From: Alistipes sp.
GTDB taxonomy: Bacteria > Bacteroidota > Bacteroidia > Bacteroidales > Rikenellaceae
Reading direction: 5' to 3'
DNA: 63,407 bases
Assembly (NCBI GenBank): GCA_017398555.1
Contig: JAFQFV010000014.1
Span: 1-63,407, forward strand
The notes under the pieces are model-generated. The model saw only the letters and a list, made by a program, of their open reading frames with translations. It was not told the origin of the DNA and did not search any database. Positions 17,705 through 52,137 of the stretch are shown one piece after another (position 1 is the first letter of the stretch; every line of letters starts with the position of its first letter). Position numbers and translations under genes: made by a program.

Positions 17705-18133
17705 CTACTTTACGCGGAACCAATCCATAGTCCTCCCCAACAACCCACGCTTATCGAGTGAGCCACGAACCTTAAGGAGATCGCCCTCGACCTTCATAGA
17801 GCAGTTGTAGGTCTTGCCATTTCCCGGATCGTAAATAGAGCCGCCTGAATACTCCTTCTCGCCCTTCTTCAGGTCGCTGAGCATATTCAGACCAATCAGT
17901 TGTCTGCTACGGAGCTTTGCATCGGGGTTATTCTGATCAACAGCAGGAGAGCCATCGGCTTTAGTCGGATTCTTCAACCAAACAATCTTTCCATTGTAAA
18001 CTCCGCCGTCCTGATAAACCTCTACGATTGCAGAACCGTCGCTTAACTTCCACTTTCCTACAACATCTTGTGCAAAGAGTGCTGTAAGCGGGGCGAGCAT
18101 AAAGATCGCACCCAAAATTACCTTCTTCACCAT
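17705..18133 (-). CDS. DUF2147 secreted protein
   Basis: 142 residues with a signal peptide (MVKKVILGAIFMLAPLTALFAQ). The mature domain is typical of DUF2147: VVGKWKLSDGSAIVEVYQDG, then GKIVWLKNP, LIGLNMLSDLKKGEKEYSGG and IYDPGNGKTYNCSMKVEG. These small periplasmic proteins have a lipocalin-like beta fold and no known activity. It has a -7 box (TATATTTG on the minus strand, 18157-18164), and hairpin element A lies at its 3' end. Confidence 0.85.
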   Translation of the reverse strand: MVKKVILGAIFMLAPLTALFAQDVVGKWKLSDGSAIVEVYQDGGVYNGKIVWLKNPTKADGSPAVDQNNPDAKLRSRQLIGLNMLSDLKKGEKEYSGGSIYDPGNGKTYNCSMKVEGDLLKVRGSLDKRGLLGRTMDWFRVK

Positions 18134-18156
18134 AATTGTTTAAGTTTAATACAATG

Positions 18157-18164
18157 CAAATATA
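18157..18164 (-). promoter_or_regulatory. -7 box of the DUF2147 gene
   Basis: TATATTTG on the minus strand, 24 bases before the start codon at 18133. Confidence 0.55.
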
Positions 18165-18284
18165 AGTATTTTTCCAGAATTCTGCATCTCCTCCCAATTT
18201 TTACCCATCAAAACCACCAACAAACCTCACCTTATAAGCTGTTTGAAATTTTGCAACAATTTCGACAAAGATTGATGTAAACTA

Positions 18285-18443
18285 TTGGTTATTAACACAT
18301 TAGTATAAAGTATTGATAACCAGCGAGTTACATACTCTGTAATCAAATCGCATTCGTCCCAACAGCCAATCATTTGATTATCAAATATTTACAGAAGTAC
18401 TCTGTAATCATTTTTTTGCCCCATTTTTTGGAACTATATATCG
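18285..18443. repeat. Dispersed AT-rich element with duplicated module, copy 1
   Basis: Pairs with 45269-45425. Shared parts are a hairpin with conserved loop ATTAGTATARA flanked by inverted arms (GGTTATTAACAC / GTATTGATAACC here), a TTGATTATCAA block, a T-run plus GCC, and an exact 20-base match at 18422-18441 (CATTTTTTGGAACTATATAT). Inside this copy ACTCTGTAATCA occurs twice (18334-18345, 18399-18410); in copy 2 a different sequence is duplicated at the same two places. Function unknown. The rest of the gap 18134-18648 holds only the two following features and a promoter. Confidence 0.65.
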
Positions 18444-18507
18444 CTACACCTTTACCGATGCGGACTATCAGTTTGCACTCGAAAATGGAACAAAGTTAGA
18501 GTGGTAA
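18438..18507 (+). pseudogene. Possible C-terminal gene remnant
   Basis: After the repeat, one plus-strand frame reads IYRYTFTDADYQFALENGTK then LEW and a stop (TAA, 18505-18507). It is followed 26 bases later by a strong hairpin, as if it were the tail of a deleted gene. It has no start codon and is too short to assign. Confidence 0.35.
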
Positions 18508-18533
18508 AGGGTTATTCGGCAAGTTCTTGAGGT

Positions 18534-18568
18534 GCCCCCGAAAGTGTTTTATGCAGGCTTTCGGGGGC
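18534..18568 (+). terminator. Terminator-like hairpin
   Basis: Stem GCCCCCGAAAG / CTTTCGGGGGC, 11 perfect base pairs with a 13-base loop. No T-run follows, so termination strength is uncertain. Confidence 0.6.
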
Positions 18569-18586
18569 GCTTCATTATGTCGCGCT

Positions 18587-18617
18587 TTTGTTTTTGTGGC
18601 GATTTTTACTACATTTG
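18587..18617 (+). promoter_or_regulatory. Bacteroidota-type promoter for the M28 peptidase
   Basis: TTTG (18587-18590) and TACATTTG (18610-18617) are 19 bases apart, with the start codon at 18649. Confidence 0.7.
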
Positions 18618-18648
18618 CTATGCAAAAAGTCACTAAAACAGAGAAGAT

Positions 18649-20364
18649 ATGAATAAATTTAGACCTTTTATACTTGCAGTAACGGTTATTTTGTCAGCGT
18701 TTATTGCCTACGGATTATGGAGCAGACCACGTGTAGCCGATAGTAGTTGCAGCGGTTTTTCGGCGCAGCGTGTTGTTGCTGACATTGAGCAGATTTCAAA
18801 AAATCACCACTCTGTGGCGCACCCTGCAGAGCGTGCAGAGGTGAGAGAGTATCTCGTATCGCGACTGAACGAGCTGGGTGCAGATACCGTAAAACTCTTT
18901 GAGTACAAAGACCTTACAGGTCCTGAGAACAAGCACGTAGTATATACTTTCGATGCGACCAACGTCCTTGCCGAGTTTCATCCGCAGCAGGGCGAGGGTA
19001 GCACTTCGCTGCTATTTGTTGCCCACTACGACTCGCGCTACAGCCAGCCGATGCCACACCAAGATACCGTTTGGTCATACGGTGCAGCTGATGACGGCTA
19101 CGGTGTGGGTGTAATTCTTGAGACGATGAAGCAGGTGCTTGCACTTCGCAGTGAGTGGAAGCAGGGCGTCAAGGTGCTCTTTACCGATGCCGAGGAGGTT
19201 GGAATGAAGGGCATGAAGGCGATGTGGGAGCAGAACAGAGAGCAGTTTGAGAATGTGGGTATGATGATAAACATCGAGGCGCGAGGCCCGTGGGGTCCTG
19301 CCCTGCTCTTTGAGACCTCAAATGGCAACGAGAAGATTATGGAGCTCTACGACAAGGCGGCGAACTACCCATTTACCTACTCACTGACCACCGTGGTCTA
19401 TAACTTTATGCCCAACTTCACCGACTTTACAATCGTCAAGGAGGATATTCCGGGCATGAACTTCTCAACCGTCGCCGATATTAACCACTACCACACAGAT
19501 TTGGATAACTTCTCGAACATAAATCCAAAATCTATACAGCACTATGGCGAGCAGATTACCCCGATAGCTATCGAGTATCTGACAAATGAGCAGTATGCCG
19601 ACAAGGATGCCCTGCGTGCGACAAGCGACACTACAAACTTTACCATTCCGCTACTCGGACTATTCAACCTCTCCAAGGGCGGTTATATGTGGATAAATAT
19701 CGCCGTCTTTGTACTCTTTCTGCTACTGCTTGCGCTCAACGCTCTGCGTGGCAAGGTATCACTTGCAAAGGTCTGCAGCGGCGCGGGCATAACACTCCTT
19801 GCAGCCATCGGTGCGCTGGTTGCAGGCGAGCTTGTGGCCTTTATATGTGCCGTAGCGTCAGATGTAAAGTTTAAGCCGTTCGGTATTCAGCAAGGTATTG
19901 TTTATGACAATGCAGCGATGATTGCAACCGTTGCACTGCTGGCAGTTATAGTCTCGGTTATCTATCTCTGGCGTCGCCGAGCAGCGGCCCAGAAGTGCAC
20001 AAACTCAATCCGCGAGAGTGCAAAGAGCGTGGCTATCAATCTCTACACAACAAACAAACTCTATGGTGCGCTGTTGCTCCTCTGCCTATTGAGTCTGATA
20101 CTGCTCATAGCACTTGGCGAGAACCTAATGTTCTTTATCCCACTTACGGCAGCTACTGCAGCCCTGCTGCTCTACCGAGCAACACGCCTTAAGGTGTGGT
20201 TATTGGCGGCGATTACTATCACGCTGCTGCACGCATTCTCATTCCTCTATGCGCTTGCGATGGCACTTACAATAGGGGCTTTGGGTGCAATTACAATGCT
20301 GGCGGTGTGCGATATTTTGGTACTGCTGCCACTTGCCGATCTGTACTGTTCAAAAAGAGTGTAA
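18649..20364 (+). CDS. M28-family membrane-anchored aminopeptidase
   Basis: 571 residues. A signal-anchor (residues 7-25) is followed by an M28 Zn-peptidase domain (about 40-310) with the di-zinc ligands in order: His in VAHYDSR (about 126), Asp in GAADDGYG, Glu-Glu in TDAEEVGMKG, Glu in NIEARGPWG, and His in HYHTDLDNF. The C-terminal half (about 335-571) has about eight transmembrane helices. This architecture recalls ER-metallopeptidase-1-like proteins more than soluble aminopeptidases. The peptidase domain would face the periplasm and trim peptides. It is monocistronic, with its own promoter; the hydrogenase promoter follows. Confidence 0.85.
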   Translation: MNKFRPFILAVTVILSAFIAYGLWSRPRVADSSCSGFSAQRVVADIEQISKNHHSVAHPAERAEVREYLVSRLNELGADTVKLFEYKDLTGPENKHVVYTFDATNVLAEFHPQQGEGSTSLLFVAHYDSRYSQPMPHQDTVWSYGAADDGYGVGVILETMKQVLALRSEWKQGVKVLFTDAEEVGMKGMKAMWEQNREQFENVGMMINIEARGPWGPALLFETSNGNEKIMELYDKAANYPFTYSLTTVVYNFMPNFTDFTIVKEDIPGMNFSTVADINHYHTDLDNFSNINPKSIQHYGEQITPIAIEYLTNEQYADKDALRATSDTTNFTIPLLGLFNLSKGGYMWINIAVFVLFLLLLALNALRGKVSLAKVCSGAGITLLAAIGALVAGELVAFICAVASDVKFKPFGIQQGIVYDNAAMIATVALLAVIVSVIYLWRRRAAAQKCTNSIRESAKSVAINLYTTNKLYGALLLLCLLSLILLIALGENLMFFIPLTAATAALLLYRATRLKVWLLAAITITLLHAFSFLYALAMALTIGALGAITMLAVCDILVLLPLADLYCSKRV

Positions 20365-20380
20365 TAGTAGTAGATAATTA

Positions 20381-20413
20381 TTTGGTCACACATATAATAT
20401 TTACTATCTTTGC
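20381..20413 (+). promoter_or_regulatory. Promoter of the hydrogenase operon
   Basis: TTTG (20381-20384), 21-base spacer, TATCTTTG (20406-20413), one of the best consensus matches in the window. The hydrogenase start codon is at 20437. Confidence 0.75.
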
Positions 20414-36557: not shown

Positions 36558-37103
36558 ATGGAGAAAATAAGACTCAACGACCGCACCTTCAAGGTGATGA
36601 TTCCTGCCGAGCAGATTGATGCAGCAGTGGCAAAGGTTGCAGAGGAACTCAATAAGGACTACGCAGATGCAAAGAGGCCTCCAATCTTTGTTGGTGTGCT
36701 TTGCGGCGCATTTGTATTCCTCTCTGACCTTGTGCGCAAGGTTCAGTTTACAAACGAGATTACCTTTATGCAGGTCTCTTCTTACCAGGGCACACAATCA
36801 ACAGGAAATGTGCACCAGAAGTTAGGTATCGACTTCGACATCACAGGTCGCGACATTATCCTTGTTGAGGATATTGTGGAGACAGGTCACAGCATCGAGT
36901 ATATGGTGAACTACCTTCAGACCCTCAACCCTAACAGCGTAGAGGTGTGCACCCTGTTCTACAAGCCTGAGAAGTACCAGTACAACCGCCAGATAAGGTA
37001 TGTGGCTATGGAGATTGGCAACGAGTTTATCGTAGGTTATGGTCTTGACTACGACCAGGTGGGTCGCAATTTGAAGGATATATACGTTGTAGAGGATGAG
37101 TAA
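36558..37103 (+). CDS. hpt: Hypoxanthine phosphoribosyltransferase
   Basis: 181 residues. Salvages hypoxanthine (and guanine) with PRPP to IMP/GMP. Type I PRTase: PRPP loop DIILVEDIVETGHSIEYM, flexible loop with SSYQGTQST, and the terminal FIVGYGLDYDQVGRNL characteristic of HPRT. Its last eight bases overlap queE. Purine salvage fits with the secreted nucleases elsewhere in the window. Confidence 0.93.
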   Translation: MEKIRLNDRTFKVMIPAEQIDAAVAKVAEELNKDYADAKRPPIFVGVLCGAFVFLSDLVRKVQFTNEITFMQVSSYQGTQSTGNVHQKLGIDFDITGRDIILVEDIVETGHSIEYMVNYLQTLNPNSVEVCTLFYKPEKYQYNRQIRYVAMEIGNEFIVGYGLDYDQVGRNLKDIYVVEDE

Positions 37104-38070: not shown

Positions 38071-38195
38071 CCGAAAGCCGATAAAAAGATGAATTTCAAG
38101 GCTTTCGAAGTGCGCGAAACCGGAGTTTACTAAGGCGTAAATGAGGATTTCGAGCACGAGAGTAACGCAGAAAGTCGCTTTTTATCGGCTTTCGG
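38071..38195. repeat. Dispersed hairpin element, TACTAARRCGTA-loop family, copy B
   Basis: A perfect 18-bp outer stem (CCGAAAGCCGATAAAAAG with its mirror at 38178-38195) encloses imperfect inner arms and the tip TTTAC-TAAGGC-GTAAA. It lies between convergent genes, and its right arm supplies the last codons (Glu-Ser-Arg-stop) of the anSME gene. Confidence 0.8.
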
Positions 38196-39405
38196 TCATT
38201 ATTTCGGAGGCCGGTTTTCCATCTAAAATCAACTGCTTCATCCGCTCCATATCTGCGGCAGTATGCTCATAGAACATACGGTAGCCGTCGCAGAGGTAGT
38301 TTTTGCCATACTCGCCCGTATTATCAGCGATAAAGCGATGTTTCGGGCACTCGCCGTGACAGAGATTATAGAACTTACAATGGCGGCACTCACGCGGCAG
38401 CAGTGCGCGTTTTGCCACACCAAACTCAAACTGACGGTCGCAATATGCCAGGTCTGCAAGGCGGTCGGTATGGATATTTCCTATCTTATACTGAGGATAT
38501 ACAAAGTGGTCACAGCAATAGACATCGCCATTATGCTCAACCGTAAGACTGCTACCGCAAGTCTCACAGAGTGAGCAGACTGACGGCTGCACACCGACCA
38601 TAAGGGCAAGTGTGGCATCAAAGAGCTGAACATAGCGTCTGCCCACATCGTTTTTGACCCAAATATCGAATATATCGCACATAAACTGTCCGAAGCCCTT
38701 TGCGCTCACAGACCACGGTGCAACATCCGCCCCCTCATTTTCAGGCGACTGCACACGACCATCGCAGAGCAGCTCCGCCACAGGCAAAAACTGCATAAAG
38801 ACGCTTATCTGACGCAAAAACTTATAGACCTCAGCACCACGACCCTCACTATGGATATTGACCGTTGTAAGGGTGTTATACTCCACACGGTTACGATATA
38901 GGCGCTCGATACCCTTCATCACACGGGCGAAAGTTGGATTGCCTCCCGCATCTACTCGATGTGCATCGTGGATATGCTCCGGGCCATCTATCGACACCCC
39001 GACAAGGAAGTTATTGTCGCGGAATATCTGGCACCACTCATCATCCACAAGCAGTCCGTTGGTCTGTATCGAGTTCTCGACCGTCTTACCCTCGGCATAC
39101 CTCTGTTGCAGAGCCACCGCCTTACGGAAAAACTCCTTACCCGCCAGCAGAGGCTCGCCACCGTGCCACGCAAAGGCGATAACGGGTGAGTTATTACCCT
39201 CGATATTGGCACGGATATAGCTCTCCAACAATCTATCATCCATCTGCGGCTGACGATAGTCATACAGAGCCGCCTTATCGAGATAGTAGCAGTACTTACA
39301 GCGCATATTACACAATGAGCCGACGGGCTTAACCATCGTGGTAAAGCCGCGTCGTTCATTGCGTTTAACGATATCCTCGTATGAGAACTCTACACTTCTG
39401 CGCAT
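38182..39405 (-). CDS. Anaerobic sulfatase-maturating enzyme (anSME, radical SAM)
   Basis: 407 residues. Converts the active-site Ser or Cys of a sulfatase to formylglycine. N-terminal radical SAM motif CNMRCKYCYYLDKAALY. The C-terminal SPASM region has CSLCETCGSSLTVEHNGDVY, CCDHFVYP and CRHCKFYNLCHGECPKHRF, for two auxiliary [4Fe-4S] clusters. It overlaps the sulfatase gene by one base (TAATG), an explicit enzyme-maturase pair. The last codons lie inside hairpin element B. Confidence 0.93.
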   Translation of the reverse strand: MRRSVEFSYEDIVKRNERRGFTTMVKPVGSLCNMRCKYCYYLDKAALYDYRQPQMDDRLLESYIRANIEGNNSPVIAFAWHGGEPLLAGKEFFRKAVALQQRYAEGKTVENSIQTNGLLVDDEWCQIFRDNNFLVGVSIDGPEHIHDAHRVDAGGNPTFARVMKGIERLYRNRVEYNTLTTVNIHSEGRGAEVYKFLRQISVFMQFLPVAELLCDGRVQSPENEGADVAPWSVSAKGFGQFMCDIFDIWVKNDVGRRYVQLFDATLALMVGVQPSVCSLCETCGSSLTVEHNGDVYCCDHFVYPQYKIGNIHTDRLADLAYCDRQFEFGVAKRALLPRECRHCKFYNLCHGECPKHRFIADNTGEYGKNYLCDGYRMFYEHTAADMERMKQLILDGKPASEIMTESR

Positions 39406-41006
39406 TATCTTGTTATATCCACATTAAATGGCTCATACTCAGCAAGATGGTGGCTCTCCTCAATATAGCCCCACATACGCTCAACAATCTCAGGGTGCTC
39501 AGCAGCCACATCCTTATCATCAAACTCGATATCCTTACCAGGAGTGCTTACATCGAAGAGTTTCATTGTGCGGTTGCCCTTATGAACATCCAGAATAAGA
39601 CCCTTCCACTTTCCCTCACGAACGGCAATCATACCGCCCGCAGCAGGGTACTCCCAATAGAGATAGTCGTGCTCTTTCTGCATCTCAGGCTCTCCCGAAA
39701 GGGTTGGCACGAGGGATACACCGTCATTCTTCGGAGCATCAACACCCGCAAGTTCGCAAATGGTCGGCATAACGTCAGCGAAGTTTCCGATATGGTCACT
39801 CACAACACCACTCTTAATCTTTGCAGGCCAAGAGGCGATAAACGGCATACGGATACCGCCCTCGCGCAGTGTACGCTTGCCCCAGCCCTTACCACAACGG
39901 TACGGAGCGGCGCTATCCATCCATACGGTTGGCGAAGAGGCGTTATTTGCAGGGCCATTATCAGATGAGAACATAATCACCGTATTCTCATAGATACCAA
40001 GGCGCTTCAACTCCTCAACAAGCATACCTACCTGGTGGTCGAAATATGAAATCATCGCCGAATATGTTGCGTGAGGATAGCGGCATGGGTAGTAGTTGTG
40101 TGGCCAAGCGTTCAGCTCGCAATTATCGCCCACAAGTGGCTCCTCATCGCCATACTTTGCAACATACTTCTCCACCCACTCCTTCGGAGCCTGTAGTGGA
40201 GAGTGCGGGAATGGAGTGGTCCACATAAGGAAGAATGGCTTATCCTTATTTGTGCGGACAAAATCTACAACATTATCGTACATCACATCCGGAGCATAGA
40301 CCTTATCCTCGCTATACTTGTCATAGCTGCTCCAATCGTACGGATCTGCACCCTTATCGAGCTTTGTTCCCGGATGGGTAACCTTTGAGCGGTCGTTGAT
40401 ATACTCCTTCTCACCATTCTTCCACATATAGTGCGGATAGTAGTTGTGCGCCACACGCTGACAGACACAACCATAGTAGAAGTCAAAGCCCATATCCCAT
40501 GGAGCCGAGCCGCTTGCAGGGCCACCGATGCCCCACTTACCGACCATACCTGTAGCATATCCCGCCTGCTGCATAACAGTTCCCAAAGTAGGCGTTCCCG
40601 GCTTAAGACCCATTTGACCCTCAATGCTCGGATCCTGCTCGACCATATCATAGTTCCAGATACCGTCCTCAACACGACCCTCAACATTCTCACGAATCTG
40701 CGAGTTTCCCATATTCTGACCTGTAATGAGACAGGCACGCGATGGAGAGGATACAGGCGCTGCGGTGTACATATCGGTAAAGCGGATACCGTTATTTGCC
40801 AGCGCGTCGATATTCGGAGTCTCTGTTTTGGTCTGACCATAGCAACCAAAATCGCCATAACCGGCATCATCCATAAGGATAAAGATGACATTCGGGCGCT
40901 CGGCATCCTTATCTGCGGCCTTGCAACCTGTAAAAGCGAGCGGAGCTACAGCCGTCGTAGGTACAGCCATACAGAGGGCTGTCTTTGATAGTTTATTAAG
41001 TTTCAT
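39405..41006 (-). CDS. Ser-type arylsulfatase lipoprotein
   Basis: 533 residues from ATG 41006; the GTG just upstream is less likely. N-terminal lipoprotein-type signal (APLAFTGC). S1-family features are NVIFILMDDAGYGDFGCYG (metal-binding Asp pair), PVSSPSRACLITGQ as the formylglycine motif S-x-P-x-R with Ser, MFSSDNGP, and a trailing GKWKGLILD. The Ser-type motif requires the anSME encoded directly downstream. The substrate is a sulfated host or plant glycan or sulfate ester; the exact subfamily was not resolved. Confidence 0.9.
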   Translation of the reverse strand: MKLNKLSKTALCMAVPTTAVAPLAFTGCKAADKDAERPNVIFILMDDAGYGDFGCYGQTKTETPNIDALANNGIRFTDMYTAAPVSSPSRACLITGQNMGNSQIRENVEGRVEDGIWNYDMVEQDPSIEGQMGLKPGTPTLGTVMQQAGYATGMVGKWGIGGPASGSAPWDMGFDFYYGCVCQRVAHNYYPHYMWKNGEKEYINDRSKVTHPGTKLDKGADPYDWSSYDKYSEDKVYAPDVMYDNVVDFVRTNKDKPFFLMWTTPFPHSPLQAPKEWVEKYVAKYGDEEPLVGDNCELNAWPHNYYPCRYPHATYSAMISYFDHQVGMLVEELKRLGIYENTVIMFSSDNGPANNASSPTVWMDSAAPYRCGKGWGKRTLREGGIRMPFIASWPAKIKSGVVSDHIGNFADVMPTICELAGVDAPKNDGVSLVPTLSGEPEMQKEHDYLYWEYPAAGGMIAVREGKWKGLILDVHKGNRTMKLFDVSTPGKDIEFDDKDVAAEHPEIVERMWGYIEESHHLAEYEPFNVDITR

Positions 41007-41044
41007 CACAACAGTATTTTAGTAGTATTTTAGATTTAGCACAA

Positions 41045-42490: not shown

Positions 42491-43318
42491 TTATCGACTT
42501 GCCACAAACCACGGGTTCTGCAGGTTCTCCTTATTATACTCCAGCGGCTTATTATCGGGCAGTGAGAGTGTCACACCTCCTGCCTCGGAGAGTATCAACT
42601 CCGCAGCCGCAGTATCCCACTCGTATGTATGCGTTGTACGCGGATAGTAGTCGATAGTGCCCTCGGCAAGCATACAGAACTTATACGAGCTACCCTGCTC
42701 AACTATCTCAACGCACTGCTTATCGCGTTTTGCAGCCTCGATATACTCTGCCGTCTCAGGCGTCTGATGCGAGCGCGAAACGGCGATGCGATAGCTGCTA
42801 TGGCTACTACTCTCAAGCGGCAGACGCTGCTTGCGAGCGCATATATCCTCATAACTATACGAAGCATCGGCTGACGGTGCTACCCCCTCAATAAGGAACG
42901 AGCCAATCTCGCGGCTTGCCACATAGGCCTTCTGCAGATATGGCACATAGACCACCGCACAAGCACATACACGGTCTGCCATCAGAGCTATATTTACGGT
43001 AAATTCGTTATTCCCCTTAATAAACTCGACCGTTCCATCCAGCGGATCAACAAGCCAAAAGAGCTCCCAATTTCTGCGCTCATCGTAGAGCATTTCACGC
43101 CCCTCCTCCGAGAGAATAGGTATTCTGGTCTGTCCCAAACTCTCCTTAATCTTCTCGTGCGCAAGGCGGTCGGCAAGGGTGATAGGAGTATGGTCGCTCT
43201 TGACCGAAATATCGTATTTATCTCGGTTTTTATACACCTCCATTATCTCCCAACCTGCCCGCACAGCGGCATTGAAAGCTTGGGGTAACAGATAGGCTCT
43301 GATATCGTCTGACAACAT
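42491..43318 (-). CDS. cysQ: 3'(2'),5'-bisphosphate nucleotidase CysQ
   Basis: 275 residues of the inositol-monophosphatase fold. Hydrolyses adenosine 3',5'-bisphosphate (pAp) and related compounds. Metal-site motifs are PILSEEGREM (Glu pair), WLVDPLDGTVEFIKGNNEFT and the C-terminal YEWDTAAAELILSEAGG. Lies five bases downstream of the glycosyltransferase-like gene, apparently the last gene of that operon, although function gives no obvious link. pAp also inhibits oligoribonucleases, so it may protect nucleotide salvage. Confidence 0.92.
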   Translation of the reverse strand: MLSDDIRAYLLPQAFNAAVRAGWEIMEVYKNRDKYDISVKSDHTPITLADRLAHEKIKESLGQTRIPILSEEGREMLYDERRNWELFWLVDPLDGTVEFIKGNNEFTVNIALMADRVCACAVVYVPYLQKAYVASREIGSFLIEGVAPSADASYSYEDICARKQRLPLESSSHSSYRIAVSRSHQTPETAEYIEAAKRDKQCVEIVEQGSSYKFCMLAEGTIDYYPRTTHTYEWDTAAAELILSEAGGVTLSLPDNKPLEYNKENLQNPWFVASR

Positions 43319-46457: not shown

Positions 46458-46485
46458 CTTATCAAAAACAAACGTTAAGAAAGAG

Positions 46486-46513
46486 ACGTGTCCCTTTTGG
46501 GGCACGTTTTTTA
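46486..46513 (+). terminator. Terminator of rplU-rpmA
   Basis: ACGTGTCCC / GGGGCACGT with a TTTT loop, followed by a T-run. Confidence 0.8.
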
Positions 46514-46586: not shown

Positions 46587-46594
46587 TACCTTTG
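46587..46594 (+). promoter_or_regulatory. -7 box of the nuclease operon
   Basis: TACCTTTG, 25 bases before the first nuclease gene at 46620; a TTTG lies at 46571-46574, closer than usual. Confidence 0.5.
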
Positions 46595-46619: not shown

Positions 46620-47396
46620 ATGAAAAAACTTTTCACCTTACTTCTATTCGCAGTATTATCTTCATACTGCGCAATGGCGTGGGACAACCGTGGTCACTCG
46701 ACCATTGCCTATATTGCCGAGCGACATCTTACACCTCGCGCCAAGGCAAATATCGAGAGCTACATCGGCGGTCGCTCGATTGTCTATTACGCTGCTTGGA
46801 TGGATTACAACCGCTCTACACCTCCATTTGACATTACAAGAGATTGGCACGTGGACTATTGGACCGATGCACACCGCACCGACGAGAATGGCAACCCACA
46901 GCCTCCATGCTCAGTAAGCCAGATTAAGCGTATCGTATCAGAGATGGGCGACTTCCGCACGCTGAGCGACTCATTAGTAAATGTAAATATCAAGTTCCTG
47001 GTACACCTTGTTGGCGATATGCACTGCCCTGTACATATCGACTTCCCGACATCGCGTCCAATGAAGGTTACGATGGACAAAAAGACCGTAAAGGTACACG
47101 CTATGTGGGATGCCCACGTTCTGAACAGCAAGCACAACGGCACCTCTCCTATGCAGCTTGCCGAGGAGTTCGACATCTTTAGCGACGAGCAGATTGCAAA
47201 GATTCAGCTCGGAACTCCAGACGATTGGCACATCGAGAATGTTGCCATATCCGAGAAGGTTATCCAGATGATTCCAAAGAGCAAAAAAATCACCTATGAC
47301 AACTATCTCAACGAGGCTATAAAGTATGCCGAGGACCGTATAACCGTTGCCGGATACCGCCTTGCATCTATTCTTAACTCAATTTTTGACAAGTAG
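46620..47396 (+). CDS. S1/P1-family nuclease, tandem copy 1
   Basis: 258 residues from ATG 46620. Signal peptide ends CAMA, so the mature protein starts with Trp (WDNRGHSTIAYIAERH), as P1-type nucleases need: Trp1 and His6 bind zinc. Other ligands, in Penicillium P1 numbering: Asp45 (AAWMD), His60 (DWHVDYW), His116/Asp120/His126 (LVHLVGDMHCPVH), His149/Asp153 (VHAMWD). All nine are present, so an active tri-zinc phosphodiesterase acting on single-stranded DNA or RNA in the periplasm is expected. First of five tandem paralogs; the next starts after one base. Confidence 0.88.
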   Translation: MKKLFTLLLFAVLSSYCAMAWDNRGHSTIAYIAERHLTPRAKANIESYIGGRSIVYYAAWMDYNRSTPPFDITRDWHVDYWTDAHRTDENGNPQPPCSVSQIKRIVSEMGDFRTLSDSLVNVNIKFLVHLVGDMHCPVHIDFPTSRPMKVTMDKKTVKVHAMWDAHVLNSKHNGTSPMQLAEEFDIFSDEQIAKIQLGTPDDWHIENVAISEKVIQMIPKSKKITYDNYLNEAIKYAEDRITVAGYRLASILNSIFDK

Positions 47397-47397
47397 T

Positions 47398-48231
47398 ATG
47401 AAAAAGTTTATCACCATTATAGTTGCTCTGCTCTCTATCCACAGCGCCTCAGCATGGTCGAAGGCTATCCATGCAGGTATCGCTGCTATTGCTGATGCAA
47501 ACCTTACAGAGCAGACCAAAGAGAGTATTCGTCAGGCATTTGACGGTCGCAACATCGTCTATTACGCACACTGGATGTACGACATGGCCGACACAAAGGG
47601 CTATGAGCAGACAAAGAATTGGCGCAGCGTAGCCATTGCAAAGAACAACAAGCCTCTTAAGTCGAAGAAGGTTGCATCCCACAGCGAGGATGTAGTTCGC
47701 AGAGCGCAGGGTCTTGATGCACTTGCTGCAGCTATCCGAGCTATCGAGTCGGGAACGCTTACAAAGGAGCAGTTGGCAGACAATATCCGATATATCGTAA
47801 CTATCGTAGGCGACCTCCACTGCCCTACCCACTACATCTTTGTCGACAATCTGCCACAGCGCAAGATGCACTACTTCTACAACGACAAGAAGCAGTCTTA
47901 CGTCGGCTATTGGGAGAATGGCTCTATCGCAGGTACCTTCCCGTGGAAGTCAAATGAGTATGTACACCAGCTCAACCGCAAGAGTCCTGAGCAGATTGCC
48001 CAGATTACAAAGGGTTCAGTAACAAGTTGGGTTATCTCGAATGCCGCTGCTTATCGTGAGATATACACCCTTCTTAAGGATGGTCAGAAGTTCAACCAGA
48101 AGAGTTATCGTCTGTGGCAGAACACCATCTACCCTATCTCAACCGAGCAGGCAGCCGTTGCAGGCTATCGTATTGCGGCTATTCTTAACGGTCTGTTCGA
48201 CAGCAATGTAGCCAATGTAAAGATTAAGTAA
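47398..48231 (+). CDS. S1/P1-family nuclease paralog, tandem copy 2, probable pseudoenzyme
   Basis: 277 residues. Signal peptide followed by WSKAIHAGIAAIADANL, so Trp1 and His6 are kept. Compared with its neighbours, Asp45 is replaced by Tyr (HWMYD), His60 by Arg (NWRSV), His116 by Thr (YIVTIVGDLHCPTH), His149 by Val and Asp153 by Glu (YVGYWENG); only Asp120 and His126 remain of the others. The reading frame is intact and of full length. It may have become a binding or regulatory protein, for instance a partner of the active copies or an immunity-like factor. Confidence 0.82.
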   Translation: MKKFITIIVALLSIHSASAWSKAIHAGIAAIADANLTEQTKESIRQAFDGRNIVYYAHWMYDMADTKGYEQTKNWRSVAIAKNNKPLKSKKVASHSEDVVRRAQGLDALAAAIRAIESGTLTKEQLADNIRYIVTIVGDLHCPTHYIFVDNLPQRKMHYFYNDKKQSYVGYWENGSIAGTFPWKSNEYVHQLNRKSPEQIAQITKGSVTSWVISNAAAYREIYTLLKDGQKFNQKSYRLWQNTIYPISTEQAAVAGYRIAAILNGLFDSNVANVKIK

Positions 48232-48253
48232 TCCCACTCAAAACAGATTTGCT

Positions 48254-49087
48254 ATGAAACGAATTATAACCACTCTTGCCCTCGTCTGTATCTTGGGCAG
48301 CACCAACCTCTGTTTTGGTTGGGGACGCGATGCTCACGCAGCTATCGCATACATTGCCGAGCGACACCTCACTCCGACAGCCAAAGCCAATATCGAGAAG
48401 TGCATCGACGGACACTCTATCGTCTATTACGCCTCTTGGCTCGATAACTATCGCGCAGCAGAGAAGTCGTGGGGCAAGCTCTCACACGTGGCGCACTACG
48501 ACATTGCCACCTGCAAGCCTATCGGCAAGCCATACAAGTATATGAAGTCATCTATCAACAAGCTCAAGAAGTATCGTGAGCTTCCTGACTCTGCACTTAA
48601 GGTGACAATCTACCACTTCGTGCACTCTTTTGGCGACTACCACTGCCCTGGCCACGTGGCTTACTACGACTGCTCAGGCGAGAAGCCAAAGAAGCTCATC
48701 ACCTCAAGTTACGACATCTATCTTCAGAGTCAGAAGAGCCGTTACAACTACCACAAGCTTTGGGATAGTGGCATTGTTCAGCTCTATCAGAAGGGTTGGG
48801 GCTATATGGATTGGGGACACGCCTTGGACAGCTCTGTCCCTGAGGAGTATATCAAGAGTGTGACTGAAGGAACTCTTGCCGATTGGATGACAGACATCGC
48901 TACAAGAACCAAGTATGAGTACAACATCTACGGCAGAGCTCCGGCAAAGGATAAACTTGCTGATGATAACGAGCTCTCGGTGGTCGATGGCGATATGTTT
49001 AACGATTTTGCAGAGATTGCTGCCAAGCAGATACTTATCGCAGGTCTGCGCATGGCAAAGGTTATTAACGAAATATTTGGAGAGTAA
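48254..49087 (+). CDS. S1/P1-family nuclease, tandem copy 3
   Basis: 277 residues with a signal peptide; the mature start is WGRDAHAAIAYIAERH. All ligand positions are filled: ASWLD (Asp45), LSHVAHYD (His60), HFVHSFGDYHCPGH (His116, Asp120, His126) and YHKLWD (His149, Asp153). It has a longer linker containing KKLITSSYDIYLQSQKSRYN. Its stop overlaps the start of copy 4 by one base (TAATG). Confidence 0.88.
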   Translation: MKRIITTLALVCILGSTNLCFGWGRDAHAAIAYIAERHLTPTAKANIEKCIDGHSIVYYASWLDNYRAAEKSWGKLSHVAHYDIATCKPIGKPYKYMKSSINKLKKYRELPDSALKVTIYHFVHSFGDYHCPGHVAYYDCSGEKPKKLITSSYDIYLQSQKSRYNYHKLWDSGIVQLYQKGWGYMDWGHALDSSVPEEYIKSVTEGTLADWMTDIATRTKYEYNIYGRAPAKDKLADDNELSVVDGDMFNDFAEIAAKQILIAGLRMAKVINEIFGE

Positions 49088-49887
49088 TGAGAAAGTTTGT
49101 AGTTATCCTTATGGCCGCTATCCTCCTCCCGCAGTTTGCAATGGGTTGGGGCAGACTCGGTCATCGAACTATTGCCGAGATTGCAGAGCGCAACCTCACA
49201 CCAAAGGCTAAGGCTAATATCGAGAAATATACAGGCGGCACTCCACTTTGGAAGTACTCTCTGTGGGTAGATGAGATGCGCAACCATCCCGACTACAAGA
49301 AGCCTCTGTATGGTCTTCACGCCTCTATAGCTGACAGCGACTGCACCTCGCCACAAATCGTACGCGACCGTTACCGCGATGGTAAGGATGGTGTAACTGC
49401 AATGTACACCTTCCGCGAGCAGCTCAAGAACTACAAGGAGTTGCCGGACTCTGTTGTTCTCTATGCCATTAAGTGTATCACTCACATTGTTGCCGACTTC
49501 AACTGCCCAAGTCACGTCAGATATGTGGATAACGCCAATAAGGGTGACTATCCTGCTATCTTCAATGGCAAGAAGGTCGGAGTACACCGTTTTTGGGATA
49601 CTTGGCTCATTGAGTCTCTGCAGAAGGATAGAAACCCACAGCACTATGCTGACCGTCTTAATGTTCTGTCAAAAAAGGAGATTAAGAAGATAACCAAAGG
49701 TTGGGCGCAGGAGTGGTTTGAGGATGCTGCACGCAGCTGCCGTCCTACGCTCTATTGGGTAGATAACCTTAAAATTGAGAAGCTTGACCAGAAATTTATC
49801 GACAAGGCTACTCCGCTTGTAGAGAGTCAGTTACAGAAGGCAGGCTATCAGATGGCAGAGGCCCTTAACACCATATTTGGTAAGTAG
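49087..49887 (+). CDS. S1/P1-family nuclease, tandem copy 4
   Basis: 266 residues with a signal peptide; mature start WGRLGHRTIAEIAERN. Ligands: SLWVD, GLHASIADSD, CITHIVADFNCPSH and VHRFWD, all present. It is most similar to copy 5: both share the blocks CTSPKIVRERYR / CTSPQIVRDRYR and KKITKGWAQEWFED / NKITKGWAQQWFED. A Cys in HASIADSDC may form a disulfide. One base separates it from copy 5. Confidence 0.88.
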   Translation: MRKFVVILMAAILLPQFAMGWGRLGHRTIAEIAERNLTPKAKANIEKYTGGTPLWKYSLWVDEMRNHPDYKKPLYGLHASIADSDCTSPQIVRDRYRDGKDGVTAMYTFREQLKNYKELPDSVVLYAIKCITHIVADFNCPSHVRYVDNANKGDYPAIFNGKKVGVHRFWDTWLIESLQKDRNPQHYADRLNVLSKKEIKKITKGWAQEWFEDAARSCRPTLYWVDNLKIEKLDQKFIDKATPLVESQLQKAGYQMAEALNTIFGK

Positions 49888-49888
49888 T

Positions 49889-50695
49889 ATGAAAAGATTT
49901 GCACTTATTCTCTCCCTCGCCCTTACACTGCCACAGTTGGCGTTTGCATGGGGCTACATCGGCCACAAGGCCATTGCAGAGATTGCCGAGCGCAACCTCA
50001 CACCTAAAGCTAAAGCTGCTATTGAGCGCTACACCAATGGCACCCCGCTGCACGAGTATTCGCTGTGGATGGATGAGGTTGTGGCTACCCCGCCTTACAA
50101 CAAGGCACTTGCAGGTTGGCACGCCTCTATTTGCGATGTAGATTGTACAAGTCCGAAGATTGTTCGCGAGCGTTACCGTAAGAGTCGTGATGGCGTAACT
50201 GCAATGGAGCAGTTCCAGCTGCAGCTCAAAGATTACAAAAATTTGAGCGACTCAACTGTGCTGACAGCCATCAAGTGCATTGTCCACATTGTTGCAGACT
50301 TCCACTGCCCTACACATATGCGCTATGTCGATCTGCACAATGAGGGTAAATACCCTGTCGATTTCTTGGGTCAGCGTTGGGACTACCACGCAGTATGGGA
50401 TACCGGCATTGTCGAGGCTTACCACAAGGGCTGGGACTTTGTAAAGTATGCCGACCAGCTCAACACTCTGAGCAAGGGTGAGATTAATAAGATTACCAAG
50501 GGTTGGGCACAGCAGTGGTTTGAGGATGGCAGCCGCGCTGTTCGTCCGATTATCTATTGGGTAATTAATGACGGCAAGAATATTCAGAAGCTCGATATGG
50601 AGTTTGTCAATAAGTGCGGCCCTCTTGCAGAGAGCCAGATGCAGAAGGCGGGCTACCGTCTTGCGAAGGCTCTGAATACCATTTTCGGCAAATAA
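49889..50695 (+). CDS. S1/P1-family nuclease, tandem copy 5
   Basis: 268 residues from ATG 49889. Signal peptide ending FA, mature start WGYIGHKAIAEIAERN. All nine ligands are present: SLWMD, GWHASICDVD, CIVHIVADFHCPTH and YHAVWD. Close to copy 4 in sequence. The PHP phosphoesterase gene begins 26 bases later, so it is probably cotranscribed. Preferred substrate (RNA, ssDNA or 3'-nucleotides) is not deducible. Confidence 0.88.
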   Translation: MKRFALILSLALTLPQLAFAWGYIGHKAIAEIAERNLTPKAKAAIERYTNGTPLHEYSLWMDEVVATPPYNKALAGWHASICDVDCTSPKIVRERYRKSRDGVTAMEQFQLQLKDYKNLSDSTVLTAIKCIVHIVADFHCPTHMRYVDLHNEGKYPVDFLGQRWDYHAVWDTGIVEAYHKGWDFVKYADQLNTLSKGEINKITKGWAQQWFEDGSRAVRPIIYWVINDGKNIQKLDMEFVNKCGPLAESQMQKAGYRLAKALNTIFGK

Positions 50696-50721
50696 AAGTA
50701 CAACTTAAAACATAAACCAAA

Positions 50722-51894
50722 ATGAAAAGACTCTTTATCGCTCTTTTGGCACTTCTTCCGCTTAGTGCCTTCGCGCAGTACAATCCTGAGACTCTGCGCA
50801 CCGCTGTAGCACAGCCTGCACAGCGCTTGGAGATTGTTCTCCCACAGGTAAATGGCTACAACATCTACAAGGTAGATTTGCACACCCACTCTATCTACTC
50901 TGATGGTGAGGTAACCCCTGCATTCCGTGTTAAGGAGGCTTATATGGATGGTCTGGATGCTATCGCAATTACCGAGCACGTCGAGTATCGCCGTATCGAG
51001 CCTAAGATGCTCAAGTTCCTCAAGGGTTATACCGGTGGTAAGGCTCTGAAGGCCGAGAATACCGACCTTATCCGCAACGAGATTACCGAGTCAGGCATCA
51101 AGGCCGACCTGAACTACCCTGTAGCAGAGGCTGTTAAGGAGAGCAAGAAGTATGGCGTGCTGGTTATCCCTGGAGCAGAGATTACCCGTGAGCCTGTAAA
51201 GATTGGCCACTTCAACGCACTCTTTACCAAGGACAACAACACTATCTACGATCCGGATCCGCTCCAGAGCCTTCGCAATGCTCGCAAGCAGGGCGCGCTC
51301 ATTCAGCACAACCACCCAGGTTGGCGCCGTACATCTTGCGACAAGACCGAGTTCGAGGTTAAGGCCTACAACGAGGGTCTGATTGACGGTATCGAGATTG
51401 CAAATGGCGGTTCACTCTACCTCCCTATCGTAGATCGCGCACGCGAGGAGAACCTCTTTGTGGCTGCAAATACCGATATTCACCCAACCACTGCCGAGTA
51501 CTACCGTCTGAAGGGTCAGCTGCGTAATATGACCCTCGTATTTGCCAAGGAGTGCACCCTGAAGGGTATCCGTGAGGCTTTAGAGGCAAAGCGTTCACTG
51601 GCTATGTCTGGTGGTTATGTATGCGGTGACGAGCAGCTGCTCAAAGATCTGTTCCTCGCATCTATCAAGTATGAGGTTATCAGCACCGATAAGAAGGGTG
51701 TTCGCACAGTGCTTGTTACCAATATGTGCTCTATCCCATATCAGTACAAGACCTCAAAGAATGCGCTGCCTGTAGATCTGCTGCCATACCATAGCATCCA
51801 GTTCAAGGTAGCGAAGGATAAGAAGCTCAACCTTACCCTTACCAATATGCTCTGCGGTGCAGATAAGCATCCAAAGGTAACCCTGGAGCTGTAA
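50722..51894 (+). CDS. Secreted PHP-domain phosphoesterase
   Basis: 390 residues with a signal peptide (MKRLFIALLALLPLSAFAQ). PHP metal motifs: VDLHTHSIYSDGE, ITEHVEY, GAEITREP, QHNHPGW and ANTDIHPT. PHP enzymes hydrolyse phosphoesters; relatives include RNase AM-type exonucleases and histidinol phosphatase. A secreted version downstream of five nucleases suggests it removes phosphate from, or further degrades, their products. That role is inference. An element with several hairpins follows the gene. Confidence 0.85.
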   Translation: MKRLFIALLALLPLSAFAQYNPETLRTAVAQPAQRLEIVLPQVNGYNIYKVDLHTHSIYSDGEVTPAFRVKEAYMDGLDAIAITEHVEYRRIEPKMLKFLKGYTGGKALKAENTDLIRNEITESGIKADLNYPVAEAVKESKKYGVLVIPGAEITREPVKIGHFNALFTKDNNTIYDPDPLQSLRNARKQGALIQHNHPGWRRTSCDKTEFEVKAYNEGLIDGIEIANGGSLYLPIVDRAREENLFVAANTDIHPTTAEYYRLKGQLRNMTLVFAKECTLKGIREALEAKRSLAMSGGYVCGDEQLLKDLFLASIKYEVISTDKKGVRTVLVTNMCSIPYQYKTSKNALPVDLLPYHSIQFKVAKDKKLNLTLTNMLCGADKHPKVTLEL

Positions 51895-51928: not shown

Positions 51929-52137
51929 GCAGTACCGCCCACACGGTACTGCCCGCTTTTTCGAGAAAAAGCAGGGCGTGCAAAAAGCTTTGTGCGAAAC
52001 TTCGTTTCGCTTGTAGGCTGTTGCGAGAATAACGTTGTCTGCGACAATAGAAAAACAAAAATAGCACTTCACTTTCAAGCAAGCTTGAGTGAGTGCTATT
52101 TTCATTTTTACTATCCTTGCGGATAGCTGTTATTCTC
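51929..52137. repeat. Multi-hairpin dispersed element with compensatory changes, copy 1
   Basis: Shares an identical 71-base block with the window end (52018-52088 = 63337-63407). Upstream of it both copies have the same succession of hairpins with different sequence: GCAGTACCG/CGGTACTGC (51929-51952), a CTTTTT/AAAAAG hairpin (51951-51977), and GCGAAAC-TTC-GTTTCGC (51994-52010; CCAAAAC-TTC-GTTTTGG in copy 2). A further hairpin, AAAATAGCACT/AGTGCTATTTT (52058-52102), and outer ends GAGAATAAC/GTTATTCTC close this copy. Both copies follow the last gene of a transcription unit. Confidence 0.75.

Follow-up and report, generated by a model that had tools for sequence, protein, structure and literature searches.

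A tandem S1/P1-family operon with a degenerate second copy in Alistipes, and its alternating relatives

Why would a single bacterial operon hold five paralogues of one zinc nuclease family, and are all five nucleases? The question is raised by a metagenome-assembled genome (MAG) of Alistipes sp. (GenBank GCA_017398555.1), in which a contig of 63,407 nucleotides (JAFQFV010000014.1; the window) carries five S1/P1-family genes and one PHP-domain gene, head to tail, at 46620-51894. An earlier note, made from the sequence alone, described five signal-peptide-bearing S1/P1 nucleases and a PHP phosphoesterase with gaps of 1, 22, -1, 1, and 26 bases. This layout is confirmed: all five S1/P1 products match PF02265 (S1-P1_nuclease; 64.5-129.3 bits, Pfam cut-off 29.5), and the sixth matches PF02811 (PHP; 39.7 bits, cut-off 26.4). 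The S1/P1 proteins have one Pfam domain each and 258-277 residues including the leader. Putative leaders, recognised by eye, agree with the signal peptides claimed for all products, and in each S1/P1 protein the leader ends in Ala or Gly, followed at once by the Trp that corresponds to residue 1 in S1/P1 chains of solved structure. The note is also right that copies 4 and 5 are close (63% identity); the remaining pairs share 25-34%. The note overlooked that copy 2 has lost most of its zinc ligands and that the genome holds 12 copies in total. The window operon is a small conserved example of a large expansion in part of Alistipes, in whose long arrays catalytic-looking and degenerate copies alternate.

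A degenerate copy in a conserved operon

In S1/P1 enzymes, nine residues, including the mature N-terminal Trp, coordinate three zinc ions. In SmNuc1 from Stenotrophomonas maltophilia, the ligands are Trp27, His32, Asp71, His88, His141, Asp145, His151, His175, and Asp179 (PMC11705217), here numbered W1 to D153. Alignment finds all nine in copies 1, 3, 4, and 5, whereas copy 2 retains four (WHYRTDHVE vs. WHDHHDHHD). The fold predicted for copy 2 (predicted local distance difference test, 86; predicted template-modelling score, 0.86) has SmNuc1 as its best structural match, with template-modelling scores of 0.71 by query and 0.79 by target, and both types of degenerate copy are predicted to retain the S1/P1 fold. 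Judged from its sequence, copy 2 is a pseudoenzyme that belongs to the family by fold and descent only. Below, copies with at least eight of the nine ligands are called catalytic-looking (A) and those with one to six degenerate (D).

The ratio of nonsynonymous to synonymous substitution rates (dN/dS) is 0.10 for copy 2 (median of seven unsaturated pairs) compared with 0.06-0.14 for copies 1, 3, 4, and 5, all rough values from 6-14 unsaturated, non-independent pairs per gene. These estimates indicate that copy 2 evolves under purifying selection. On these values, together with a fixed position and intact reading frames, decay of the degenerate copies was rejected. Orthologues of copy 2 are less eroded, reading WHEHHDHME (L126), WHDHYDHME (L119 and L137), and WHDHSDHSE (L118). 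The 16 aligned sequences of the copy 2 type hold invariant residues of their own, E-x-V-H-Q-L-x-R and W-E, and the window type retains W1, H6, D120, and H126. Among 47 degenerate copies, Asp120 is present in 39 and Trp1 in 41.

Finding homologous operons elsewhere was the test that the earlier note had named, and they exist. An A-D-A core recurs in 14 further loci of 13 named MAGs (L108-L119, L126, and L137), always with the degenerate copy second, and a PHP gene closes the operon in 13 of the 14. In the exception, L137, three S1/P1 genes are followed by 8 kb without a PHP match. L115 is extended to eight S1/P1 genes, the sixth of them also degenerate. In 11 of the 14 loci the operon comes immediately after rpmA, a gene that was not found upstream of L119 (7.4 kb covered), L137 (1.2 kb), or L118 (352 bases). 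In a more distant genome, G124, rpmA is likewise followed by A-D-A, the middle copy reading WHDHYDHRE. Within 1.5 kb after rpmA, an S1/P1 gene was absent from all 10 genomes with 0-5 copies and present in both expanded genomes. The relatives L108-L126 and L128 are assigned to Alistipes or Rikenellaceae, and every host named is a ruminant, some records naming none.

Recurrence of the operon across MAG series and hosts, and of long alternating runs across eight genomes (G142, G078, G138, G057, G147, G161, G160, and G070), led to the rejection of an assembly artefact. A mobile origin was also rejected: the five genes were unmatched in 72,556 plasmid records, and none of 38 pattern matches in IMG/VR was confirmed. 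L118 and L137 both come from MAG RGIG249 and each hold the A-D-A core, only one with a PHP gene, which would fit two operon copies or a mixed bin. In L126, two more PHP genes stand in tandem on the opposite strand about 6 kb beyond the operon (18019-20409).

Alternating arrays and the paired unit

PF02265 is matched in 119 of the 151 sampled genomes of the genus; 34 have at least six copies, and most of the remaining 85 have one. Other genera of Rikenellaceae have at most two copies among the genomes listed. In 391 other genomes of the phylum that are at least 90% complete, no genome exceeds three; up to six candidates were scored per genome, and among the genomes listed only the window's own had more. 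At least seven copies are present in each of the 23 genomes closest in SerRS, a set that includes the window's own. In a SerRS tree of 21 rows, 12 expanded genomes are grouped (93/90) and four others lie outside, so that two changes are needed. The intervening species, with 0-1 copies, may have lost the genes, and a single origin of the expansion is possible. The source MAG (2.03 Mb, 89% complete) has its 12 copies in the window operon (five), in pairs on contigs C20, C4, and C26, and as a single, best-scoring copy on C33. On full re-scoring, G138 yields 37 matches, G142 and G161 32 each, and G078 26, some of them fragments.

Contig C11 of G142 carries 18 consecutive S1/P1 genes, and C2 of G078 carries 20, with a D-Tyr-tRNA deacylase gene separating this run from a further S1/P1 gene ahead of it; runs in G138, G057, and G147 comprise about 10-11. 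The alternation counts and the tree of the family used 152 S1/P1 rows, leaving out 5 of 157 profile matches that are fragments at contig ends. Across eight arrays of at least five genes, 68 of 81 adjacencies switch between A and D, compared with a mean of 41.8 and a maximum of 58 in 20,000 shuffles. Taken singly, the arrays give p values of 0.0014, 0.0034, 0.0084, 0.023, 0.024, 0.20 (L073), 0.35 (L079), and 0.60 (the window operon), tests that are not independent since the arrays are mutually related. Alternation is also seen in held-out arrays, counted on genes of at least 200 residues and excluding G109:C58, which is the same contig as L116. G161:C33 has 30 genes, the first set off by a deacylase gene, and 27 of its 29 adjacencies switch, a number reached in none of 20,000 shuffles; within the unbroken run of 29 genes, the count is 27 of 28. 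The other two, G160:C19 and G070:C16, switch at 13 of 14 and 7 of 7 adjacencies. Among operons with at least two complete genes, an A copy comes first in 27 of 29, and the other two are cut by contig ends.

The order within the arrays has an evolutionary counterpart. Distances among A copies correlate with distances among the D copies that follow them (r = 0.89, n = 9; 0.75, n = 8; 0.50, n = 5, p 0.10; 0.31, n = 5, p 0.15), and likewise in the held-out arrays (r = 0.89, n = 7; 0.77, n = 14; 0.93, n = 4); a fifth array of the first set, L085, goes the other way. In the opposite register, with D before A, r is -0.29, 0.05, -0.17, 0.08, and 0.22. Since the A-then-D distances correlate and the D-before-A distances do so little, the active-then-degenerate pair is the evolving unit, which duplicates or co-evolves as such.

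In a FastTree tree of the 152 proteins, 44 of the 47 degenerate copies form one clade, with window copy 2 and two kin apart. Two origins were read from this tree, a reading dropped after a smaller but better-modelled tree (mixture model, 52 proteins) in which a single branch separates the 23 degenerate rows from the rest (Shimodaira-Hasegawa-like approximate likelihood-ratio test, 82, unstarred). By these trees, the degenerate copies are an old, separate lineage; one or two origins would both be possible, one being simpler.

Pocket remodelling, proposed function, and rival explanations

SmNuc1 holds the nucleobase and ribose through the NBS1 residues Tyr89, Asn91, Lys158, and Asn161 (PMC11705217). 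In 51 housekeeping-type rows (34 from Alistipes, one a duplicate, and 17 from L139-L155), Tyr89 is found in 48, Asn91 in 51, Gly159 in 50, Asn161 in 50, and Lys158 in 2. Tyr89, Asn91, Gly159, and Asn161 occur together in all 30 main Alistipes rows, which are best-scoring loci (four of them in expanded genomes) and thus a choice that favours canonical ones, and in all four further rows, from expanded genomes (one a duplicate). The 101 expanded active copies retain all nine zinc ligands, with one Asp-to-Glu change, while none has an aromatic residue at 89, and Asn91 (9), Lys158 (4), Gly159 (7), and Asn161 (2) are rare. In a further check of 42 catalytic copies (38 from G161, G160, and G070, and four of G109 that had been examined before), an aromatic residue at 89 occurs only in the housekeeping copy, Asn91 in six, and Asn161 in four. 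Column 91 is the most variable SmNuc1 column among those filled in at least 70% of the expanded rows.

Copies 1, 3, 4, and 5 of the window follow the expanded pattern and, by the NBS1 residues, are not of the nucleoside-binding type. The description "five nucleases" therefore stands for family membership, which all five share, and fails for copy 2, a pseudoenzyme, and for the other four insofar as they lack the nucleobase-binding residues of SmNuc1. The divided substrate range proposed in the note fares better: each orthologue group has a constant pocket segment, and these segments tell all copies apart but 4 and 5, which have one in common. The segment reads WHVDYW in 15 of 15 rows of copy 1 and HASI in 22 of 23 rows of copies 4 and 5, where the alignment is off by one column and the letters were read directly. 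Pocket remodelling thus supports divided substrates but not ordinary nucleic acids as those substrates. A PF02265 match in these MAGs is no ground for counting a gene among the nucleases, as the zinc core is kept and the nucleobase site is lost.

The four copies share PF02265, the fold, the N-terminal Trp, and the nine ligands with SmNuc1 (PDB 8QJL; PMC11705217), S1, P1, TBN1, and AtBFN2. They differ from SmNuc1 in lacking the aromatic residue at Tyr89, and the window operon differs further in its tandem arrangement and in copy 2, which lacks most ligands. A closer comparison is the housekeeping-type protein of the same genome (G000:C33, L001), which has the same fold and ligands but keeps Tyr89, Asn91, Gly159, and Asn161. 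Outside Alistipes, nine relatives of copy 5 (L127 and L129-L136, from Ereboglobus, Muribaculaceae, and other taxa; 33-39% identity) all have the full set of nine ligands but no aromatic residue at 89; unlike the window operon, they have no second S1/P1 gene within the flanks examined. The 39% identical protein of L127 comes from Ereboglobus sp., presumably a member of Verrucomicrobiota, and horizontal transfer is possible. L130, L133, and L135 are three separate relatives without the nucleobase site in one Muribaculaceae bin (Lapin-018 bin5), perhaps a smaller expansion.

The reading preferred here, about as likely to be right as wrong, is a toolkit of secreted zinc phosphodiesterases that scavenges phosphate esters and in which the dead copy serves as a partner subunit. 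The operon products would be secreted (periplasmic or exported) S1/P1-fold phosphodiesterases with three zinc ions, one pseudoenzyme, and one PHP phosphoesterase. The catalytic copies would combine a common zinc core with individually remodelled pockets and together probably cleave a range of phosphodiesters or phosphomonoesters in the gut; nucleic-acid fragments, nucleotides, and possibly other phosphate esters are candidate substrates. The PHP enzyme would finish the products, and phosphate and nucleosides would then be salvaged. The degenerate copy would persist as a partner to the product of the catalytic gene immediately upstream, most likely joining it in a heteromer to stabilise the enzyme or to shape its access to substrate. 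A further-reaching version, offered tentatively and with the balance of probability against it, sees the arrays as combinatorial enzyme/pseudoenzyme pairs in which the zinc core is fixed, the pocket is hypervariable, and the enzyme's own dead paralogue sets its specificity or activity. Two-gene units would have been duplicated up to 14 times per run, and the expanded enzymes would have left nuclease function for other phosphodiesters.

Several observations weigh against the partner-subunit toolkit. Alternation in the window operon is not significant (p 0.60), with only one of five copies degenerate. Many loci hold active copies only (AA, AAA, or AAAA), so not every active copy needs a degenerate partner. 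Co-variation of A with the following D is reversed in L085 (r -0.91, n = 4) and positive but not significant in L072 and L082, and the D-before-A register is weakly positive in two held-out arrays (r 0.49, p 0.04; r 0.30, p 0.015). Duplication of A-D units can yield co-variation without contact between the products. Ordinary nuclease action sits badly with the lost nucleobase site, and the charge pattern is mixed, with median isoelectric points of 9.1 for the 101 active, 7.9 for the 47 degenerate, and 6.5 for four housekeeping copies, and 6.3 for window copy 1. To our knowledge, characterised S1/P1 enzymes act alone. The word "dimer" does not occur in the SmNuc1 paper (PMC11705217).

Plain nucleic-acid scavenging, in which duplication raised the dosage of ordinary nucleases and left the degenerate copies behind as neutral by-products, draws on the S1/P1 family itself and on the nucleoside phosphorylase and endonuclease genes beside another pair in this genome. 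It seems improbable, as the degenerate copies are fixed in place, intact, and under purifying selection, alternate with active ones, and form an old lineage, and the nucleobase-site aromatic is gone from all 101 expanded active copies. The nucleic-acid degradation pathway proposed in the earlier note retains the support of those neighbouring genes, but nucleic acid as the substrate is only inferred because copies 1, 3, 4, and 5 lack the nucleobase-binding residues. A role for the degenerate copies independent of their neighbours, as enzymes or binders with another metal set or ligand (for instance, capturing oligonucleotides or other polymers), would explain why most keep Asp120 and Trp1 and why the window type keeps four ligands and gains the invariant VHQL and W-E; alternation and pairwise co-variation indicate a link to the neighbour, and this role is judged unlikely. 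Co-varying, module-like A-D pairs are also what secreted nuclease toxins with paralogous immunity proteins would produce, the degenerate copy inhibiting the active copy encoded before it, and the authors of a study on Het-C toxins predict for them the fold common to S1/P1 and phospholipase C (PMC3482391). Such a system is highly doubtful, given that the single-domain window proteins carry no delivery domain, that many active genes have no degenerate neighbour, and that seven proteins tried against PADLOC and six against PHROGs gave no match.

An enzyme family with inactive paralogues that matter has a parallel in the GH28 pectinases and pseudoenzymes of leaf beetles, likewise expanded digestive hydrolases, though the enzyme family and host differ and the abstract describes no alternating operon (PMC6549527). 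The S1/P1 family is known. Among the matches listed in the open-licence literature, no title concerned S1/P1 arrays, pseudoenzymes of the family, or its Alistipes expansion, and the alternating enzyme/pseudoenzyme architecture is without description there. With up to 29 paralogues alternating between catalytic and dead forms, the role of secreted pseudoenzymes becomes directly testable with two small proteins. If the pairs do act on different phosphodiesters, they would offer a ready set for enzyme discovery and a clue to the diet of this Alistipes group.

Gene neighbourhoods and mapped features

Table 1. Features of the operon and its flanks in the window.
Feature	Position	Strand	Basis
Copy 1 (A1), S1/P1 family, 9/9 zinc ligands	46620..47396	+	profile match, ligand alignment
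Copy 2 (D2), putative S1/P1-fold pseudoenzyme, WHYRTDHVE instead of WHDHHDHHD	47398..48231	+	profile, alignment, fold prediction
Copy 3 (A3), S1/P1 family, 9/9 zinc ligands	48254..49087	+	profile match, ligand alignment
Copy 4 (A4), S1/P1 family, 9/9 zinc ligands	49087..49887	+	profile match, ligand alignment
Copy 5 (A5), S1/P1 family, 9/9 zinc ligands, 63% identical to copy 4	49889..50695	+	profile, alignment
PHP-domain phosphoesterase with leader, relative of PDB 3e38	50722..51894	+	profile and structure-database match
Terminator-like hairpin between rpmA and operon	46481..46512	+	consensus scan, count not significant
Terminator-like hairpin 3' of PHP gene	51929..51952	+	consensus scan, count not significant
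TAccTTTG, similar to Bacteroidetes -7 promoter element	46587..46594	+	reading of sequence

The PHP protein resembles the two-domain PHP-like phosphoesterase PDB 3e38 (E 4e-57, residues 138-388) and contains HTHSIYSDG, HNHPG, and NTDIHP, which are presumably PHP motifs. Its score against the CehA/McbA metallohydrolase model NF038032 (69 bits) is below the curated cut-off of 80. The candidate promoter was matched to what is assumed to be the Bacteroidetes -7 consensus. The hairpins are weak evidence because such sites are no commoner than in shuffled sequence (three in the region vs. a mean of 4.9).

Elsewhere in the genome, the pair on C4 is flanked on its own strand by genes for a nucleoside phosphorylase and a DNA/RNA non-specific endonuclease. 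The pair on C20 comes after a gene for a ZIP zinc transporter, and the A-D pair on C26 after genes for a cytidine/dCMP deaminase, a pseudouridine synthase, and a D-Tyr-tRNA deacylase. These neighbours are suggestive of zinc supply and nucleotide salvage. In G078 and G142, the large arrays stand just before murG- and murC-like genes, and a gene for a 23S rRNA intervening-sequence protein stands among protein genes just before the G078 array (L070:3146-3496). The earlier note suggested that the operon may feed purine salvage (hpt) and phosphate supply; in the window, a phosphoribosyltransferase-domain gene (36558-37103) is outside the operon, about 9.5 kb away. A sulfatase gene (39408-41009, minus strand) adjoins a radical SAM/SPASM gene (38185-39405, minus strand), an arrangement taken here for a sulfatase next to its anaerobic maturase. 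An inositol monophosphatase-family gene (42494-43318, minus strand) is found upstream of rplU-rpmA and on the opposite strand to these; it also occurs near rplU in some non-expanded relatives (G063, G128, and G023).

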